Source: Dehalococcoidia bacterium (GTDB lineage Bacteria > Chloroflexota > Dehalococcoidia > Lucifugimonadales > Lucifugimonadaceae). Taken from it: 60,513 bases of DNA. The stretch is from contig SHXW01000014.1 in assembly GCA_009693115.1 (NCBI GenBank), positions 1 through 60,513 on the forward strand, read 5' to 3'. This document shows positions 13,058 through 22,069 of the stretch, one piece after another. The notes under the pieces are model-generated. The model did not search any database. It was given only the letters and a program-made list of their open reading frames with translations, and had not been told where the DNA came from. Within the stretch, counting starts at the first letter, position 1. Each line of letters opens with the position of its first letter. A program made the translations under genes and the position numbers.

Positions 13058-14338
13058 CTACTTCCTTAGAGCGCGTCGGGCGGCAGCGACGGTGGTGTCA
13101 ATGTCCGCGTCTGTGTGGGCGAGGGACGGGAACCACGCCTCAAACTGCGATGGCGGCGGGTACACCCCTTCACCGACCATGGCGTGGAAGAACTCTGAGA
13201 ATCGCTGCCTGTCAGATCTGCCGGCAGTCTCCATATCCGTGACGGGGCCGGCCGTGAAGAACACGGTGAACATGCCGCAAACGCGGTTGACGGTCACCGT
13301 TGCTCCGGCATCACTGAAAGCCTTCGCAAGGCCGTCCGCCAGTCTGTCTGTGACATGCGCGAGCCTCGTGTGGACGCCCGGGTCTTTCAGGGCCTCAAGA
13401 GTGGCGATGCCAGCCGCCATGGCCACCGGGTTGCCGGAAAGGGTGCCGGCCTGGTACATGGCGCCCAGAGGGGCAACGTTCTGCATGATCTCCCGGCTCG
13501 CGCCGTATGCCCCGACTGGGAAGCCTCCGCCAACGATCTTGCCCAGGCAGGTGACATCTGGCTTGATGCTGTAAAGAGCCTGCGCACCGCCGGGGTGGAC
13601 GCGGAACCCGGTCATCACCTCGTCGAAGACAAGGAGCGCTCCGTCTTTGCGTGTGATGTCCCGCAGGCCGTTGAGGAACCCCTTCTCGGGTTGCACGACG
13701 CCCATGTTCCCGGCAACCGGCTCGACGATGACTGCAGCGATCTTGCCGCGGTTTTCGGCGAAGAGGCGCTCTACCGCGTTCAGGTTGTTGTAGGGCGCCA
13801 CCAGCGTGCTCGCTGCATATCCGGGATGAATGCCTGCTGAGTCCGGGATGCCGTGCGCTGCAGCGCCGGAGCCGGCCTTGACGAGCAACGCGTCGTCATG
13901 GCCGTGGTAACCGCCGTCAAACTTGACGATCATGTGGCGGCCTGTGTGTGCGCGGGCAAGGCGCAGGGCGGACATCGTGGCTTCGGTCCCGGAGTTGACG
14001 AAGCGCACCATCTCGATGCCAGGCATGAACTCATGCACAAGCGCCGCCATGCGGACTTCTGACTCAGTCGGAGCGCCGTAGCTTGTACCGCGCGATGCCG
14101 CCTCCTGCACAGCTGCAAGGACGCGCGGGTGGGCGTGGCCGAGAATGAGCGGCCCCCACGAGCCGACATAGTCTATGAACTCATTGCCGTCCACGTCCCA
14201 CAGGCGCGATCCACTCCCGCGTGCGAAAAAGAGGGGCTTGCCTCCGACGCTGCGCCACGACCGCGCCGGGCTGTTGACGCCGCCGGGGATGAGTTTTTGA
14301 GCCTGTGCGTAGAGTTCTGCTGACCGGGCCGTGTTCAA
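13058..14338 (-). CDS. hemL: Glutamate-1-semialdehyde 2,1-aminomutase
   Basis: PLP enzyme of the C5 route to heme, converting glutamate-1-semialdehyde to 5-aminolevulinate. The 426-residue protein, normal for the family, carries VNSGTEATMSA (phosphate/PLP contact), VFDEVMTGFR (pyridine-ring aspartate) and the Schiff-base lysine Lys267 in CLGKIVGGGFP. The start is TTG 14338, immediately preceded by GGAGAAAAAGG; a longer frame back to 14398 adds non-conserved residues. It is downstream of hemH and hemE on the same strand, with hemA further upstream, so most of the early and late heme pathway lies here. Confidence 0.95.
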   Translation of the reverse strand: MNTARSAELYAQAQKLIPGGVNSPARSWRSVGGKPLFFARGSGSRLWDVDGNEFIDYVGSWGPLILGHAHPRVLAAVQEAASRGTSYGAPTESEVRMAALVHEFMPGIEMVRFVNSGTEATMSALRLARAHTGRHMIVKFDGGYHGHDDALLVKAGSGAAAHGIPDSAGIHPGYAASTLVAPYNNLNAVERLFAENRGKIAAVIVEPVAGNMGVVQPEKGFLNGLRDITRKDGALLVFDEVMTGFRVHPGGAQALYSIKPDVTCLGKIVGGGFPVGAYGASREIMQNVAPLGAMYQAGTLSGNPVAMAAGIATLEALKDPGVHTRLAHVTDRLADGLAKAFSDAGATVTVNRVCGMFTVFFTAGPVTDMETAGRSDRQRFSEFFHAMVGEGVYPPPSQFEAWFPSLAHTDADIDTTVAAARRALRK

Positions 14339-14439
14339 CCTTTTTCTCCATCGAGTTAAAGGGGCCTTTGTTGAGGTGAACGTATCACCGCGCCCCAATT
14401 CTCTCCCCTGCAGAGACGGCGGACGCGGATTAGGCCGCC

Positions 14440-15375
14440 TCAGAGTTGCTTCAGGGTACGCCCGGCGACGGCAGCGAGGGCCTCGATGAACAGCGGCAGA
14501 GTGTTGGGGGCCGGCGACCGGGCAAACTTCATGCCTGCCTCTCCGGCTTCAGTACCGCCCGCTGTGTCCACGTCATACAGGGTCTCAAGGTGGTCCGCCA
14601 GGAACTGCACGGGCACCACGAGCACCGCCGTGTACCCCTGCGATTTCAGGTCGGGTAGGCGGTCCTTGAAGTCCGGCTTCAGCCACTCTTCGGGCGTGTG
14701 CCCTGCGCTCTGGTAGGCCTGCTCCCACTCGCCCTCGTTGAGCGCCGCCCTGGCTGCGACAAGACTGGTGGTCTCGCGGAGCTGGTTGAGGTATTCGGGT
14801 TCTTTTTCGACCATCGGCTTCGGCAGGCTGTGGACGGTCATGATGGTCTTGACGCGTTCGGCCATGCCGAACTTCGCCCGCCCTTCGTGCACGAGCTTTG
14901 CCATGGCAGCGGTGAACAGTGGTTCCGTATGCCACGACCCGGACAAGGCGACGCTGACGCCCGCGGGGAGGCGCGGCCTGGCGGCATCGACTGCTCGTTG
15001 GTAGCCGCCCATGAAATATGGCGAATACTGGGGCGACATGATGATCGCGGCGATCCTCGTCGCGCCCCAATCGGCAAGGCTGCACAGGCCGTCTGCTATT
15101 CCCGGTTCGGAGTAGCGCATGCCAGAGGTGACGCGGTACGCCTCCCCGGCGCTGGCGCGGCTGTTAAGGAGCGCTTCGAGGGCCGCGGCCTGGTCCGCGG
15201 TTATCTTCCTCAGCGGAGAGCCGCCCACGACCTCGTACCGCCTCTGGAACTCTGTGACAAGGTCGTCCGGGGCGGGGCGCCCGCCCCGGACCCGCGCCAG
15301 ATAGCCACTCACTTCTCCAGCGTTTGCGGCGGATCCGAAGCTCATCAACAGGACGCCAGTCTTGGTGACCGTCAT
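14440..15375 (-). CDS. hemH: Ferrochelatase (likely coproporphyrin ferrochelatase)
   Basis: Inserts ferrous iron into a porphyrin. The 311-residue protein shows the class motifs: LLMSFG at the N terminus, GGSPL, catalytic His182 (TVHSLP) and Glu264 (LADHLETLYDVD). Because a ChdC/HemQ decarboxylase is encoded close by, the substrate is probably coproporphyrin III (CpfC role) rather than protoporphyrin IX; this is inferred from context. Its ATG shares one base with the hemE stop (TGATG), indicating translational coupling. It lacks the [2Fe-2S] cysteines at the C terminus found in some ferrochelatases. Confidence 0.93.
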   Translation of the reverse strand: MTVTKTGVLLMSFGSAANAGEVSGYLARVRGGRPAPDDLVTEFQRRYEVVGGSPLRKITADQAAALEALLNSRASAGEAYRVTSGMRYSEPGIADGLCSLADWGATRIAAIIMSPQYSPYFMGGYQRAVDAARPRLPAGVSVALSGSWHTEPLFTAAMAKLVHEGRAKFGMAERVKTIMTVHSLPKPMVEKEPEYLNQLRETTSLVAARAALNEGEWEQAYQSAGHTPEEWLKPDFKDRLPDLKSQGYTAVLVVPVQFLADHLETLYDVDTAGGTEAGEAGMKFARSPAPNTLPLFIEALAAVAGRTLKQL

Positions 15376-16433
15376 CAGGCTGGTACTCTTGCGGACGAGT
15401 GTGAGTGTACAAACTCTGTCAGACGGGCAAGGCTGTCTGGGTTTGTGTTGGGCATGACGCCGTGGCCCAGGTTGAAGATGTGGCCAGGCCTCCCGCCTGC
15501 GCGTCGCAAGACGTCGGCGGCTTCCTGTCTCACGACTTCATCTGGAGCGGCGAGGATAGTCGGATCCAGGTTGCCCTGGATGCCTCTGTCGTGGCCAACG
15601 CGCGCCCATGCCTTGTCGAGCGGCAAGCGCCAGTCAACGCTCATTACGTCGCTACCGGCCGTGGACATGAGTTCAAGCAGGCCTCCTGCTGCGGTGCCGA
15701 AGTAAATGGTCGGAACGCCGAGCGAACGGATTTCAGCAAAGATTTGCTGTGTGTAGGGCAGTACATACCGCTCGTAGTGCGTTGGGCCGAGCGCTCCGAC
15801 CCAGCTTTCAAATATCTGCACTATGTCGACCCCGGCCCGGACCTGCTCGCGCAGGTAGTCCACCGTGACCACGGTGATCGTCTCCATGAGGCGGCGCCAG
15901 AGGTCGGGCCGGGAGAACATCAGGCCTTTTGAGTAGCCGAACTCCTTCGTGGGTCGGCCTTCAATCATGTAGCTGGCAAGGGTGAACGGCCCGCCGGCGA
16001 AGCCGACGACTGCCGTCTTGCCGCCCAGTTCACCACGGAGTTGGCGGATGGCTTTGAAGACGTATGGGGTGGCCTCTTCCGCAGGGATGGCCAGCAGGGC
16101 GGCAACGTCATCATCTGTGCGCACCGGCGAAGGTACGATGGGGCCGACGTCCGGGTCTATCCGGTACGGGAGGCCCATGCTTTCAAGGACGAGCATGATG
16201 TCTGCGTAGAGCACAGCGGCATCGACGCCGAGCCGCCTGACCGGCATCAGGGAGACCTCCGTTGCGAGGTCAGGGGTTTTGGCGATCTCCAGGATGCCGT
16301 ACTTTTCTCGCAATTTCCGATACTCAGGCAGAGCGCGACCGGCCTGGCGCATGTACCAGACGGGCGTTGCGTCCACGGGCTGCCTGTGGCAGGCGGCGAG
16401 CATCCTCTCTCGTCCGGTCATCTCCGAAGACAT
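15375..16433 (-). CDS. hemE: Uroporphyrinogen III decarboxylase
   Basis: Removes four carboxyl groups from uroporphyrinogen III to give coproporphyrinogen III. The 352-residue protein has the signature WYMRQAGRALPEYR with Arg29 and Arg33, catalytic Asp78 (LYADIM) and the second signature GFAGGPFTLASYMIEG. It heads the hemE-hemH pair and is divergent from chdC across a 162-nt intergenic region. Normal length; nothing unusual. Confidence 0.96.
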   Translation of the reverse strand: MSSEMTGRERMLAACHRQPVDATPVWYMRQAGRALPEYRKLREKYGILEIAKTPDLATEVSLMPVRRLGVDAAVLYADIMLVLESMGLPYRIDPDVGPIVPSPVRTDDDVAALLAIPAEEATPYVFKAIRQLRGELGGKTAVVGFAGGPFTLASYMIEGRPTKEFGYSKGLMFSRPDLWRRLMETITVVTVDYLREQVRAGVDIVQIFESWVGALGPTHYERYVLPYTQQIFAEIRSLGVPTIYFGTAAGGLLELMSTAGSDVMSVDWRLPLDKAWARVGHDRGIQGNLDPTILAAPDEVVRQEAADVLRRAGGRPGHIFNLGHGVMPNTNPDSLARLTEFVHSHSSARVPA

Positions 16434-16595
16434 CTTTCCCCCTCGTGGCCGGGCAGGCCCCTGCCTGTACCGGTTTGCTGTTCAGAGTCCTGCTCCGCGC
16501 ACCGGCCCAGACGGGCAACTGGGTATCATGGCCGCAGGTTTCAGTCAGTCCGGCGACGCTCCGCCGCCGGTTTGTTTATCAGGGTATAAAGCAAT

Positions 16596-17321
16596 ATGCA
16601 GGAACAGGAGCACCCACCGCGTTCGGATGAACGCCCGGAACAAGCCGGAGGGCAGCGTGAGTTCATGCGCTATGCCTTCTATAAGGTGTCGGCTGAATGG
16701 CGTCGCTTGGAGGCATCAGAACGTGGTGAGAGCAAGAGAGAGTTCGCCTCGGTCGTCGCCCTCGTCTCCGAGGCCGTTTCGACAAGGCCCTTTTCGCTTG
16801 CCGGGATCCGGGGGGACGTTGATTTCATGCTCTGGATGAGGAGTCCCAGCCTCGATGACTTGAAACGGGCGGGCGAGAGGCTGAACGCCACGCACCTGGG
16901 CCGTTATAGTTCGCTCCCTTATTCCTATCTGGCTATCACCCGGCCATCGCCTTATCTATCTTCGGCGCGCGAGCGGCCGAAGGAGGCTCAGTTCGAGAAG
17001 GCCAGGTACCTGTTCGTCTATCCCTTTGTGAAGACCCGGGCCTGGTATGCGCTGCCCCAGCACTGGCGCAAGGCGATGATGCTTGAACACATAGGAATCG
17101 GCGCCAAGTACCCCTCGGTCAGGATCAACACCGGCTATTCATACGGGCTGGACGATCAGGAACACATGGTGTCTTTCGAGACGGAATCGCCGTCCGACTT
17201 CGTTGACCTTGTAATGGCCCTGCGCGAGTCCCAGCAATCCTCCTATACGCTGCGTGACACACCAGTCTTCACTTGTGTGTCCGCGGAAATGCCCGCCATC
17301 CTGGATTCGATCGCCGGTTGA
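16596..17321 (+). CDS. chdC: Coproheme decarboxylase, chlorite-dismutase family (ChdC/HemQ)
   Basis: A 241-residue protein of the chlorite-dismutase fold. In the coproporphyrin-dependent pathway ChdC uses peroxide to decarboxylate coproheme to heme b. The sequence keeps the catalytic tyrosine region LFVYPFVKTRAWYALP (Tyr142) and the heme-ligand region MMLEHIGIGAKYPSV (His165). It has no distal arginine context typical of true chlorite dismutases. The first 23 residues are polar and variable. TATAAA lies right before the ATG and there is no clear Shine-Dalgarno, so the exact start is uncertain. It stands divergent from hemE-hemH, supporting its role in the last heme step. Confidence 0.9.
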   Translation: MQEQEHPPRSDERPEQAGGQREFMRYAFYKVSAEWRRLEASERGESKREFASVVALVSEAVSTRPFSLAGIRGDVDFMLWMRSPSLDDLKRAGERLNATHLGRYSSLPYSYLAITRPSPYLSSARERPKEAQFEKARYLFVYPFVKTRAWYALPQHWRKAMMLEHIGIGAKYPSVRINTGYSYGLDDQEHMVSFETESPSDFVDLVMALRESQQSSYTLRDTPVFTCVSAEMPAILDSIAG

Positions 17322-17440
17322 AGGGCCGTGTCCCCCTTCACAGCCGGAGTTGGGACTCGGTGTTGGCGAAGGGTTGATCTCACTGGCACGGCTTTCATGC
17401 TCTCCCCAGGCACTCCTCCATCGAGGGTGTGGAAACGATT

Positions 17441-18700
17441 TCATCCATCCGAGTCAAGGCCGAATGCGTGGGCGATTTCGCCTGGGGCATCCGGGTCTTC
17501 AGTGGACCTCAGGTAGTCAATAGGCTCTGCGAGCAGCCTGCTGACAAGCGATCTCGACATCGCTTCCAGCACCGCCCGTTGCCCATCCGTGATGTCGGGC
17601 AGGCGACGTAACGCCCGTTCAAGTTCGGCACGGCGCAAGGCTTCCGCTCTCGCTCCGAGCGTCCGTATGACAGGCTCGGTCTCAAGGCCGGTTAACCTTT
17701 CTCCGAAACGGGAGACTTCACGTTCGATCAATATGGCGGCTTGTTCCGCAGCGTCTTTTCGGCTCTCCCGGTGCTCGGCGGCTATCTGCTCGAGCGAGTG
17801 CAACGTGTGCAGACTGACGCCCGCGACGGCTGACGCCGCCGGCTCGACGTCGCGTGGCATGCCCACGTCCAGTACGAACACTGGCCTGTCAGGGCGGGAC
17901 CGCATGATTTCCGAGAGCGCATGCGCGGTGATGACATGTTCGGTCGCAGCCGTGCAAGTGACAGCAATGTCTGACTCGGCGAGCGCGGCGTACCGCCTTT
18001 CAAAGGGGACGGCCTCTCCGCCAAGTTCGCGGGCTATGCCCACGGCTCGCTCCATGCGGCGGCTGGAGACGACAAGCTTGCCTATGCCAGCTGTGCGGAG
18101 GGCGCGTGCGACGAGTTCTCCAGTTTCCCCAGCGCCAATGAGGAGGGCGCTTTTCGTCTTCAGGTCGCCCAGGCTGCGTTCAATCAGCTGCACGCCGATT
18201 GACGGCACGGAGACGCGATCGCGACCCAGCCCCGTCTTCTGACGCACCCTGCGGCTGGTCCGTAGAGCAGAGTGAAAAAGGCGGGATATCCGGTGAGGGA
18301 TTACGCCGGCCTCACCCGCAGCTTTAAGCGCGTCTGAGACCTGCCCGGCTATCTGGGCCTCGCCGAGGGCAAGTGAGTCCAGCCCGCTCGTGACGCGGAA
18401 CAGGTGGCGGACCACGTCATCCCCGCGCAGCGAGTGCAAGTGCGGAGGGAGAATCGCTGCACGGCCTGACTGTACGGCGATCTCGTTCAGGAACTCGGTG
18501 AGCCGGGCGATGCCTGCCTCCGGGTCTGCGGCATCGGCATAAACCTCGGCCCGGTTGCATGTTGAAATGAAGACGCCGCCGCCGGCATGGGACGCCAAGC
18601 GTGGCAGCCAGAGAGGCATGGCATGGCGGCCAACAGCCACGCTCTCAAGTACTTCGACAGGCGCTGAAGATATGTTGACCCCGACAAGGACGAACTGCAT
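17441..18700 (-). CDS. hemA: Glutamyl-tRNA reductase
   Basis: First enzyme of C5 tetrapyrrole synthesis: NADPH-dependent reduction of Glu-tRNA(Glu) to glutamate-1-semialdehyde. The 419-residue protein has the catalytic Cys48 in STCNRAEVY, the substrate-domain motif SLALGEAQIAGQV, the Rossmann motif LLIGAGETGELVARAL (about 185-200) and a C-terminal dimerisation helix. hemL, which uses the product, is encoded about 3 kb downstream on the same strand. A Rex/Crp-type palindrome lies 52-69 nt upstream of the start, in the region shared with the divergent rhodanese gene. Confidence 0.96.
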   Translation of the reverse strand: MQFVLVGVNISSAPVEVLESVAVGRHAMPLWLPRLASHAGGGVFISTCNRAEVYADAADPEAGIARLTEFLNEIAVQSGRAAILPPHLHSLRGDDVVRHLFRVTSGLDSLALGEAQIAGQVSDALKAAGEAGVIPHRISRLFHSALRTSRRVRQKTGLGRDRVSVPSIGVQLIERSLGDLKTKSALLIGAGETGELVARALRTAGIGKLVVSSRRMERAVGIARELGGEAVPFERRYAALAESDIAVTCTAATEHVITAHALSEIMRSRPDRPVFVLDVGMPRDVEPAASAVAGVSLHTLHSLEQIAAEHRESRKDAAEQAAILIEREVSRFGERLTGLETEPVIRTLGARAEALRRAELERALRRLPDITDGQRAVLEAMSRSLVSRLLAEPIDYLRSTEDPDAPGEIAHAFGLDSDG

Positions 18701-18885: not shown

Positions 18886-19740
18886 ATGCCCATCGACCTT
18901 GACACATTGTCTCCGGACAAGCGCGGTTACACGGACTCCAGCATTTTTGTTACGACGGAGTGGCTGGAGAGGCATGTGGATGATCCCAAGGTCCGCATCC
19001 TGGACACGGACGGTGCCCCCCAGTGGGAACGGGCGCACATACCGAATTCGCTGCCCGTGCTTGACCATTACTACAAGGCGGCGGAGAAGGGTCGTACATT
19101 CATTCAGGGACCGGACGAGTTCGCCAAGACCATGTCAGCTCTGGGCATAAGCGACGACACGCTGGTCATCGGATACGACAGCGCTGGTTGTCTATATTCG
19201 TTCCGGCTCGCCTGGTCCCTGCGCTACTACGGTCACAAGCAGGTGAAAGTGCTGGACGGCGGCTTTCCGAAATGGCTTGCAGAGGGACGGCCTCTTTCCA
19301 GAACGAAGCCTTCGGTCGCCCCCGGCAGATTCACAGCCCGCCCCGACAAGTCCATCTGGGCGGGGAAGGAAGACGTGATGGCGGGCATCGGCAGAAAGGA
19401 CACCGTCATTCTGGATGTGCGGACCGATGATGAGTGGGACGGCTCGAATAAACGGGATAACGTCCGCGGTGGGCGCGTGCCCGGCGCTGTGCACCTTGAA
19501 TACAAGAACTTCCTTACAAGGGGAGATGTACCAACCGTCCTGCCAGCGGAGGACCTGAAGGAGATTCTCCTCGCGCACGGCGTGACACCGGATAAGAAGA
19601 TCATTACCTATTGACAGGGTGGCATCCGTGCGGCGCACGGATTTTGGGTGCTCAAGATGCTGGGTTACCCGCACGTCCGCGACTATGATGGCTCGATGCG
19701 CGAATGGCTCAATGAACCTTCCTGTCCGGTGGAGGTCTGA
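18886..19740 (+). CDS. Selenocysteine-containing thiosulfate sulfurtransferase (rhodanese); UGA at the catalytic position
   Basis: A two-domain rhodanese of 284 residues, provided TGA 19612-19614 is read through. The inactive N-terminal rhodanese domain spans about 10-140 (VLDGGFPKWLAEG near its end) and the catalytic domain 155-284 (ILDVRTDDEWDG). The active-site loop reads T-Y-TGA-Q-G-G-I-R-A-A-H, where relatives have Cys; coding continues in frame through FWVLKMLGYPHVRDYDGS to a normal TGA at 19738. Residue 243 is therefore probably selenocysteine. A hairpin 17 nt after the TGA fits a bacterial SECIS. The start is ATG 18886 with TAGGAG 4 nt upstream. It is divergent from hemA; two thioredoxin-fold lipoproteins follow. 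The alternative, a nonsense mutation, is less likely because the peroxiredoxin at 50.8 kb shows the same pattern. Confidence 0.85.
19624..19642 (+). promoter_or_regulatory. Putative bacterial SECIS element of the rhodanese
   Basis: An exact 8-bp inverted repeat (19624-19631 with 19635-19642) closes a GGC loop at 19632-19634. The loop begins 17 nt after the in-frame TGA and its first base is G, as expected of bacterial SECIS hairpins that recruit SelB. Confidence 0.65.
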
Positions 19741-19866: not shown

Positions 19867-21048
19867 ATGTCTGGACTCTTTAAGCGTTTCTCATTGGCAG
19901 CCGTGGTCGCGGCCGTCGTGCTCGTGGTTACCGCGTGTGGTTCTGGTGCAAAGCCTGCGTCGCAAGCCACGCCCGCTGCGCCCGGCACGACCCCTGTGCC
20001 AACGGCGACGGCGCGGCCTGCTTTCAACCGGGACGCCGCCCCCGCGTTTGAGGCTATAGGCGTGTCCAGCTGGATCAACTCGGAGCCGCTGACCATCAAA
20101 GGGTTGACCAGTGCCAACAAGGTCGTTCTTGTGGACTTCTGGACTTACACCTGCGTCAACTGCATCCGGACGTTTCCGTTCCTGAGAGAGTGGAACGCCA
20201 AATATGCGGACAGGGGCCTGGTGATCCTCGGTGTGCATACGCCGGAGTTTGAGTTCGAGAAGGTCAGGGCGAACGTCGAAAGGGCGACGGGCCAGTACGG
20301 CATCGTGTGGCCTGTTGCCCAGGACAATGACTTTCACACATGGCGCGCCTTTGGGAACCGCTACTGGCCGGCGAAATACCTGATCGACGCGGGTGGCAAC
20401 CTGGTGTTTTCTCACTTCGGCGAGGGTTCGTACATAGAGACCGAAAAGGAGATCCGTGCTGCGCTAAAGGCCGCCGGATACAAGGTTGATGACATCCCGC
20501 TTGGGTCTGTGGAGAACCTTGAGAGCGACGAGAAGGCGACGATGGTGACCCGCGAGTTGTATGGCGGGTACGGACGGAACTTTTCCGTCGGCGAGTTCAA
20601 CGCAGGCCAGGACGCTTATTACCTGGGCCCGGATCGCGTGACCGAATATGTCGACGCCGCCACCTACAAACACGATAAGTTCTATCTGCACGGGCTCTGG
20701 AAGAATGAGGAGGAGGCCGTCGTACATGCGCGGCAAACCGCAACTGCTGAGGACTACATCGCGCTGAAATTCGCGGCGACAAGCGTGAACGTGGTCATTG
20801 AGCCGCGCGGGCCAGAACCGTTCGACGTGCTGGTCGAGATGGACGGCGCGCCGCTGACGAAGGAGCAGGCTGGCTCGGACGTGAAGTTTGACGCAGAGGG
20901 CCGCAGCTTCTTCACGGTCACCGATGCGCGACTCTACTCCGTAGTCCGTCTGCCCTCGTTCGCCGTAGGCGACCTGAAGCTCAAGTCAGCGTCGAAGAAT
21001 TTCGCGGTATTTGCCTTCACATTCGGTGTTTATGAGTCGGGCATCTGA
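19867..21048 (+). CDS. Thioredoxin-like lipoprotein with DipZ-type C-terminal domain
   Basis: A 393-residue lipoprotein. The signal sequence ends in a lipobox, VVTAC, with Cys24 as the lipidated residue, followed by an Ala/Pro/Thr linker. The redoxin domain (about 60-210) has WTYTCVNCIRTFPFL with Cys96 and Cys99, the WTYxCVNC motif typical of DipZ/YneN-like periplasmic thioredoxins. The C-terminal part (about 230-390) matches the beta-sandwich domain found after thioredoxin in DipZ proteins. It would act outside the membrane in disulfide or peroxide chemistry. No CcdA-like membrane domain is attached or adjacent, so the electron donor is unknown. It follows the rhodanese by 126 nt and slightly overlaps the next lipoprotein gene. 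Confidence 0.85.
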   Translation: MSGLFKRFSLAAVVAAVVLVVTACGSGAKPASQATPAAPGTTPVPTATARPAFNRDAAPAFEAIGVSSWINSEPLTIKGLTSANKVVLVDFWTYTCVNCIRTFPFLREWNAKYADRGLVILGVHTPEFEFEKVRANVERATGQYGIVWPVAQDNDFHTWRAFGNRYWPAKYLIDAGGNLVFSHFGEGSYIETEKEIRAALKAAGYKVDDIPLGSVENLESDEKATMVTRELYGGYGRNFSVGEFNAGQDAYYLGPDRVTEYVDAATYKHDKFYLHGLWKNEEEAVVHARQTATAEDYIALKFAATSVNVVIEPRGPEPFDVLVEMDGAPLTKEQAGSDVKFDAEGRSFFTVTDARLYSVVRLPSFAVGDLKLKSASKNFAVFAFTFGVYESGI

Positions 21049-22069
21049 CCGCGCTGCGAGGCTTTTACCACTCTCCTTTGTTGGCCGCGCCGCTGTTCTC
21101 CTGACTATTGTTCTGGCGGCCGCGTGCGTGCCAGGCCGTGGACCAGTATCGTCGCCGCCCTCCACGGCTACACCGTTGCCAGCCTTTGCTGCGCCGCAGC
21201 CCACCCCGGGGCAGGTCGGTGGACTCGAAATCCAACGCTGGGCTGACTCCAGCGACCGCGGAGGGTACGCCATCCTGGCCACCACTGACCTCGCTCGCGG
21301 CCCGCAGCGCTTCGCTGTCGTCCTGACAGACGAAACCGGACTGGTCAACCTGCCTGTCGTCCAGATGCGGACGTATTACTACCGCGAAGGTTTCGAGTCT
21401 GGCAAACGAGAAGGCCCCGCAGAGACCGTAACCGCGCGTTTTCACGAGTTCCCGCTGGGTACGCGCGGCTTATACGCCACAAGCCTGGACTTCAACGAAC
21501 TGGGTGATTGGGAGGTCGAAGCTGATGTGCCGCGCTCGGACGGTTCAGTGCTCAAGGCGGCTGTCCGGTTCAGCATCGGCCACCGAACCTACTCACTGCC
21601 CGTTGGCGCCGTTGCTGACGCGAGCGTGAACCGGACTCTGAAGGACGTGCCCTCGATCGGTTATCTGACCACAGGCTCGCACCGGGACCCCGGCCTCTAC
21701 CAGACCACCATCGCGGATGCCCTCATGACGATGAAGCCGACGATCGTCGTGTTCGCCAGCCCGGCGTTCTGCACTAACGCAGTATGCGGGCCGCAAGTTG
21801 AGGTGTTGAGCGAGATCAGGGAGGAGTTCGGCGCAAGGGCCAACTACGTCCACATCGACTATTACGAGAACCCGCATGAGATCCAGGGCGACCTGACGAA
21901 AGCCGTCCCATCTAAACACCTTGCGGCGTGGGGCCTGACCTCGCAGGAGTGGACATATGTCATCGGCCGGGACGGCAAGATCACGGCGAGGTTTGAAAAC
22001 TTCGCTCCGCGTAAAGAGATCAAGGACGCGCTGGAGGCCGCGCTGGCAGCGGGTGTGCCTCCACGCTAG
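21032..22069 (+). CDS. Thioredoxin-fold lipoprotein
   Basis: A 345-residue predicted lipoprotein: hydrophobic signal and lipobox LAAAC with Cys32, then a Pro/Ser/Thr linker. The middle part (about 65-185) is beta-rich without a motif I recognise. The C-terminal part (about 205-340) looks like a thioredoxin fold, with FASPAFCTNAVCGPQVEVL (Cys247 and Cys252, a CxxxxC arrangement) and a WTYVIGRDGKI strand near the end. Cys spacing differs from the usual CxxC and recalls copper-binding Sco-like or OsmC-unrelated redoxins; function unknown. ATG 21032 lies inside the end of the previous gene, so the pair is probably co-translated; a TTG at 21011 is a possible alternative start. Confidence 0.78.
   Translation: MSRASDRAARLLPLSFVGRAAVLLTIVLAAACVPGRGPVSSPPSTATPLPAFAAPQPTPGQVGGLEIQRWADSSDRGGYAILATTDLARGPQRFAVVLTDETGLVNLPVVQMRTYYYREGFESGKREGPAETVTARFHEFPLGTRGLYATSLDFNELGDWEVEADVPRSDGSVLKAAVRFSIGHRTYSLPVGAVADASVNRTLKDVPSIGYLTTGSHRDPGLYQTTIADALMTMKPTIVVFASPAFCTNAVCGPQVEVLSEIREEFGARANYVHIDYYENPHEIQGDLTKAVPSKHLAAWGLTSQEWTYVIGRDGKITARFENFAPRKEIKDALEAALAAGVPPR

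Follow-up and report, generated by a model that had tools for sequence, protein, structure and literature searches.

The window, a 60,513-nucleotide stretch of DNA from a Dehalococcoidia bacterium, carries a rhodanese gene on its forward strand (Table 1). The gene begins with an ATG at 18886 and ends on a TGA at 19738-19740. With the in-frame TGA translated as selenocysteine (Sec, U) it yields a protein of 284 residues with U243. The frame continues without a break past this TGA, which stands at the position of the catalytic Cys, and 41 sense codons separate it from the final stop, exactly as the initial annotation had described. Pfam Rhodanese (PF00581) matches the protein twice, and the best match, residues 162-276, runs across the TGA. 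An open reading frame list compiled mechanically, with TGA as a stop, cuts the gene at 19614, directly ahead of the active site, which is the truncation that had been foreseen for standard annotation.

Table 1. Features of the rhodanese locus, in window coordinates
Feature	Position	Strand	Basis
Predicted Sec-containing two-domain rhodanese gene	18886..19740	+	Translation with TGA as U; Pfam Rhodanese, two stretches; AlphaFold2 model
In-frame TGA, predicted Sec 243 in place of the catalytic Cys in the C-terminal rhodanese domain (T-Y-U-Q-G-G-I-R-A-A-H)	19612..19614	+	Codons of homologs; column of the 1uar alignment
Bacterial SECIS hairpin, 8-bp stem (arms 19624-19631 and 19635-19642; loop GGC 19632-19634)	19624..19642	+	Pair conservation; covariation; bSECIS constraints
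hemA, glutamyl-tRNA reductase, divergent conserved neighbour	17441..18700	-	NCBIfam TIGR01035 over cut-off; adjoins the rhodanese in same-family relatives
TlpA/redoxin-like protein with Thioredoxin_10 C-terminal domain, conserved downstream neighbour	19867..21048	+	PF17991, PF08534; adjacent in relatives

In genomes of the same family the rhodanese gene is divergent from hemA and, in most of these relatives, lies upstream of a redoxin/TlpA-like gene. The more distantly related families in the order did not show this synteny with hemA and the redoxin gene. The N terminus of the redoxin-like protein contains, by eye, a lipobox-like VVTAC, and the protein is probably an exported lipoprotein. Beside the rhodanese, positions 13058-18700 hold a heme synthesis cluster with hemL, hemH, hemE, a chlorite-dismutase-family hemQ-like gene and hemA, of which hemL, hemH and hemE were assigned by reading translations. 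Positions 21011-22069 encode a thioredoxin-like protein with the motif SPAFCTNAVCGPQ and a lipoprotein-like N terminus, which gave no Pfam or NCBIfam match and is found behind the redoxin gene in some relatives.

The AlphaFold2 model of the rhodanese has a mean pLDDT of 95.8. Its best Foldseek match in the PDB is the Thermus rhodanese 1uar (TM 0.87/0.90, 36% identity). Mycobacterial thiosulfate sulfurtransferases and Azotobacter RhdA are also among the best matches. U243 falls over the active-site loop Cys of 1uar in the HMMER alignment. The PF00581 matches, the TM-score to 1uar and the aligned Cys column together give two Rhodanese domains, of which the second bears the catalytic residue. The predicted fold and the domain order are the same as in the canonical two-domain rhodaneses (Thermus 1uar, Azotobacter RhdA 1e0c, mycobacterial CysA2/SseA 3hwi/3hzu and bovine TST 1orb). 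However, these have Cys where the window protein has the predicted Sec, and the loop reads CRIAER in 1uar and UQGGIR here. The loop U-Q-G-G-I-R has what we take to be the usual rhodanese length, with Arg at its end, and G246 of U243-Q-G-G246 is nearly invariant in the alignment of homologs.

There are 202 TGAs in the window with at least 60 open codons upstream and at least 20 downstream. Considered by themselves, from the window alone, the frame and the hairpin are suggestive only and weaker than they look. What raises the selenoprotein reading far above chance is the homology across the TGA and the conservation of the TGA and the hairpin in scores of independent genomes.

The 8-bp hairpin with its GGC loop, described previously as starting 10 nt past the TGA, is present as stated: the 5' arm is ATCCGTGC, the 3' arm is GCACGGAT, and the stem starts about 9-10 nt downstream of the TGA. 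It lies within all four published bSECIS constraints (PMC13188914), with a loop of 3 nt, GGC (3-9 nt, with G in the first two loop positions), a stem of 8 bp (4-16 bp), 17 nt from UGA to loop (16-37 nt) and a folding energy of -11.6 kcal/mol for a 33-nt stretch (<= -7.5 kcal/mol). No Rfam match was found over the hairpin, which is expected because bSECIS elements differ between genes. For a 54-nt stretch the folding energy is what its composition would lead one to expect (z -0.19), and folding energy was rejected as evidence for a SECIS. When the same peptide is coded by random synonymous codons, all eight pairs form in about 1% of draws, or in 0.2% if only Watson-Crick pairs are counted.

Comparison of homologs extracted from the same order is more telling. 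All six inner pairs are preserved by 63/67 TGA genes vs 0/18 Cys genes. The codon of Arg+5 is CGT in 62/67 TGA genes, against six different codons among the Cys genes, and that of Ala+6 is GCG in 63/67 TGA genes; this freezing of codons is restricted to the genes with Sec. Among 42 distinct TGA sequences, compensatory changes occur at five of the eight pairs, with 18 two-sided change cells vs 4.2 in shuffles. In the same set the stem covariation score is 0.203 vs 0.068 +/- 0.013 after shuffling, and all slid registers score lower. Some of the compensations accompany amino-acid changes, as in CCGTTCGGCGAACGG (R-S-A-N) vs CCGTGCGGCGCACGG (R-A-A-H). Three TGA genes have one inner-pair mismatch each. 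A further TGA homolog, L085, has a decayed hairpin that keeps 3/6 inner pairs, and it represents either a different type of SECIS or a gene that is being lost.

The rhodanese protein is matched in 174 of the 197 genomes of the same order, which we guess is possibly the SAR202 cluster. In 85 extracted homologous genes the aligned codon is TGA in 67 and TGC/TGT in 18, and Trp does not occur; the extraction followed match ranking, and 67/85 is therefore a biased frequency for the order. A hand count from group codes finds TGA genes in 20 family-level groups. A wider collection of 200 rows, with genome_contigs records and other phyla among them, has U in 80, C in 120 and no other residue. TGA forms also turn up beyond the order, twice in genomes that belong to different groups of the class and once in a genome from another part of the phylum (L202, L204 and L197). 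Related genomes thus hold both forms at the exact codon. The Sec rhodanese is common within its lineage, and the rarity that the initial annotation ascribed to such proteins does not hold there. In genomes G068 and G112 two TGA-containing rhodanese genes stand side by side (L074 and L080), a tandem duplication of the Sec form.

The genome (2.0 Mb in 40 contigs, about 96% complete) has the full set of Sec machinery, the absence of which had been named as evidence against a selenoprotein. selA (contig C22, E 1.6e-166), selB (contig C6, E 8.2e-105), selD (contig C4, E 4.7e-107) and tRNA-Sec (selC; contig C16, 69.5 bits) are all matched above curated cut-offs, and ARAGORN also calls the latter as tRNA-SeC with the anticodon TCA (UCA). 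A second tRNA-Sec match above the Rfam cut-off was rejected, since it is tRNA-Ser(GCT). The selD gene has its own in-frame TGA near the N terminus (...ACAGUAGKFSQ...; L022:1501-2433, which is C4:10096-11028), and its product, selenophosphate synthetase, is itself probably a selenoprotein, the second candidate in this genome.

selA is present in 45/45 genomes that are at least 90% complete and have an extracted TGA gene, and it is missing in 3/10 Cys-only genomes of the same completeness (Fisher p 0.005, with relatedness ignored). Of the 64 genomes that contributed a TGA gene, 5 have no detected selA, and each of these five is less than 88% complete. Genome G080 (91% complete, about 260 contigs), with a TGA-bearing match and no selA, may be the one exception to the rule that a TGA gene implies selA; its gene was not extracted, and it stands outside the 45-genome count.

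On a tree of 135 proteins, built with the active-site columns left out, the Sec/Cys state requires 10 changes vs 44 with shuffled labels, and 5 of the changes are forced by well-supported branches. Two Cys clades (genus g7; genera g2/g3) are nested within the Sec clade of the window gene's family. This nesting suggests a reversion from Sec to Cys, although such counts give no direction. Genus g3 (G058, G166, G174) and G028 of g2 have small genomes of 1.3-1.4 Mb in which selA was not detected. Genus g7 and others have the Cys form despite selA; hence not every loss of Sec is forced.

The Sec machinery, the bSECIS constraints and the presence of both TGA and Cys at precisely this codon in related genomes support the selenoprotein status proposed in the initial annotation, and we consider it very probable that the product of the gene is a true selenoprotein. 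Sequence and comparison show the frame, the TGA, the machinery, the conserved SECIS and the predicted fold; the insertion of Sec, the chemistry, the donor and the acceptor we infer, and we suggest the following mechanism. SelB with Sec-tRNA-Sec would read the UGA as Sec, directed by the hairpin. Sec would be the nucleophile in the active-site loop of the C-terminal domain (U-Q-G-G-I-R), of thiosulfate-sulfurtransferase type, with the N-terminal domain presumably an inactive scaffold. By analogy with the Cys rhodaneses, the selenolate would take sulfane sulfur from donors like thiosulfate, polysulfide or mercaptopyruvate with the formation of enzyme-Se-S(-), from which the sulfur may then go on to cyanide, a thiol or an acceptor in biosynthesis. 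That sulfur transfer is the chemistry of the Sec rhodanese seems likely to us, on the ground of this analogy. The same genome also encodes a canonical Cys thiosulfate sulfurtransferase (contig C25, CRIGERSS loop), so that the Sec enzyme probably works with a donor or acceptor of its own, and it may do a narrower job than general rhodanese activity.

Alternatively, the selenoprotein might use its Sec for redox chemistry, as a selenenylsulfide oxidoreductase or in peroxide or selenium handling, rather than for the transfer of sulfane sulfur. Oxidoreductases make up the majority of Sec enzymes with a known function (PMC2398784), the canonical Cys rhodanese is there as well, and the adjoining redoxin/thioredoxin-like gene is conserved in the family. 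However, the fold and the active-site loop are those of two-domain sulfurtransferases, and Cys homologs substitute one for one. The rhodanese has no visible signal peptide and is probably cytoplasmic, and the N terminus of the redoxin-like protein resembles that of an exported lipoprotein; the two probably never meet, and the neighbour is thus not an obvious direct partner. We regard a redox role as rather unlikely. As a candidate sulfur acceptor the redoxin neighbour was likewise set aside, since it looks exported.

A reading of UGA as Trp, Cys or Gly, through a changed code or a suppressor tRNA, would also leave the frame open, and residue 243 is a prediction from sequence. We consider such a reassignment very improbable: the genome has the complete Sec pathway along with a tRNA-Sec whose anticodon is UCA, and ordinary genes of the window, the rhodanese gene included, terminate on TGA. 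Cys is the only other residue, in all 120 homologs without TGA, which fits Sec and argues against UGA as Trp. It should also be noted that a position-specific hairpin would be needless under global recoding. A sequencing error (TGA for TGC or TGT) or a true nonsense mutation that leaves a truncated pseudogene takes only a single-base change and is compatible with the Cys homologs at the same codon, but it is barely conceivable with TGA at that codon in more than 60 independent assemblies, down to about 34-40% protein identity and with frames otherwise intact, and with the hairpin kept in the TGA genes only; the same assemblies counter a read-level correction of the TGA. The conservation of the TGA and the hairpin, the Cys-only alternatives and the co-occurrence with selA thus exclude error, pseudogene and a UGA=Trp code in practice.

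The window gene is not a new kind of selenoprotein; Sec rhodaneses of COG2897 are already catalogued. A Sec-containing rhodanese-related sulfurtransferase of COG2897 was described with three sequences from the Sargasso Sea in 2005 (PMC1088965) and with eight sequences from GOS in 2008 (PMC2398784), and it is included in the catalogues of 2022 (PMC9312934) and 2026 (PMC13188914), the latter listing COG2897/SseA 'form 4' with the motif UxxG. Like form 4, the window gene encodes a two-domain rhodanese with UxxG (U243-Q-G-G246) and has a bSECIS just downstream, and both are known from prediction only. It fits this form by domain type and motif rather than by alignment to the deposited sequences (AACY01016424, MQG53192.1, MCY3690685.1). 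As far as the available parts of these sources go, the COG2897 entries consist of fragments from metagenomes or of isolated accessions and give no host, fold, covariation or phylogeny, unlike the window gene, which has these. The 2026 catalogue also has Sec in the rhodanese-type domains of COG0607 forms (CxU; UxxS) and of the TsoB fusion (NF045694), which belong to other rhodanese subfamilies than the window protein (PMC13188914). The NF041203 model, rhodanese_LYCAU, scores 39 bits against the window protein, far under its 115-bit cut-off. A literature search, with most subscription papers outside its reach, found no paper pairing 'selenoprotein' with 'SAR202' and no lineage-level report.

What is added here is the occurrence of the Sec form in 20 family-level groups from a single order of Dehalococcoidia, several switches between Cys and Sec, and the synteny within the family. 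This supplies chromosomal context, lineage and strong comparative proof for a protein family described, in the available parts of the earlier reports, mainly from marine metagenome fragments or single accessions. Where a gene caller takes TGA as a stop, the protein is truncated just ahead of its active site; hence the rhodanese is probably mis-annotated in many such genomes. Orthologs with Cys and with Sec in sister genera are ready-made pairs for the question of why selenium is used in a sulfurtransferase. We tentatively propose, as a possible rather than a probable scenario, that a core sulfurtransferase of the whole Dehalococcoidia order started out with Sec and still has it in most cases. 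Selection would maintain the Sec form for a step of sulfur transfer or redox chemistry that depends on selenium and lies beyond the Cys rhodanese of the same cell, and the enzyme would go back to Cys where selenium use is lost.

A further clade of two-domain rhodaneses with TGA, deeply split from the first (L098:489-1316 and L108:486-1316), has the loop U-[GH]-G-G-A-R and its own GC-rich hairpin (CGCGGGCGTCGCTCGCG). It is possibly an independent gain of Sec. Genome G168 has a gene of this clade together with a Cys ortholog of the window rhodanese.
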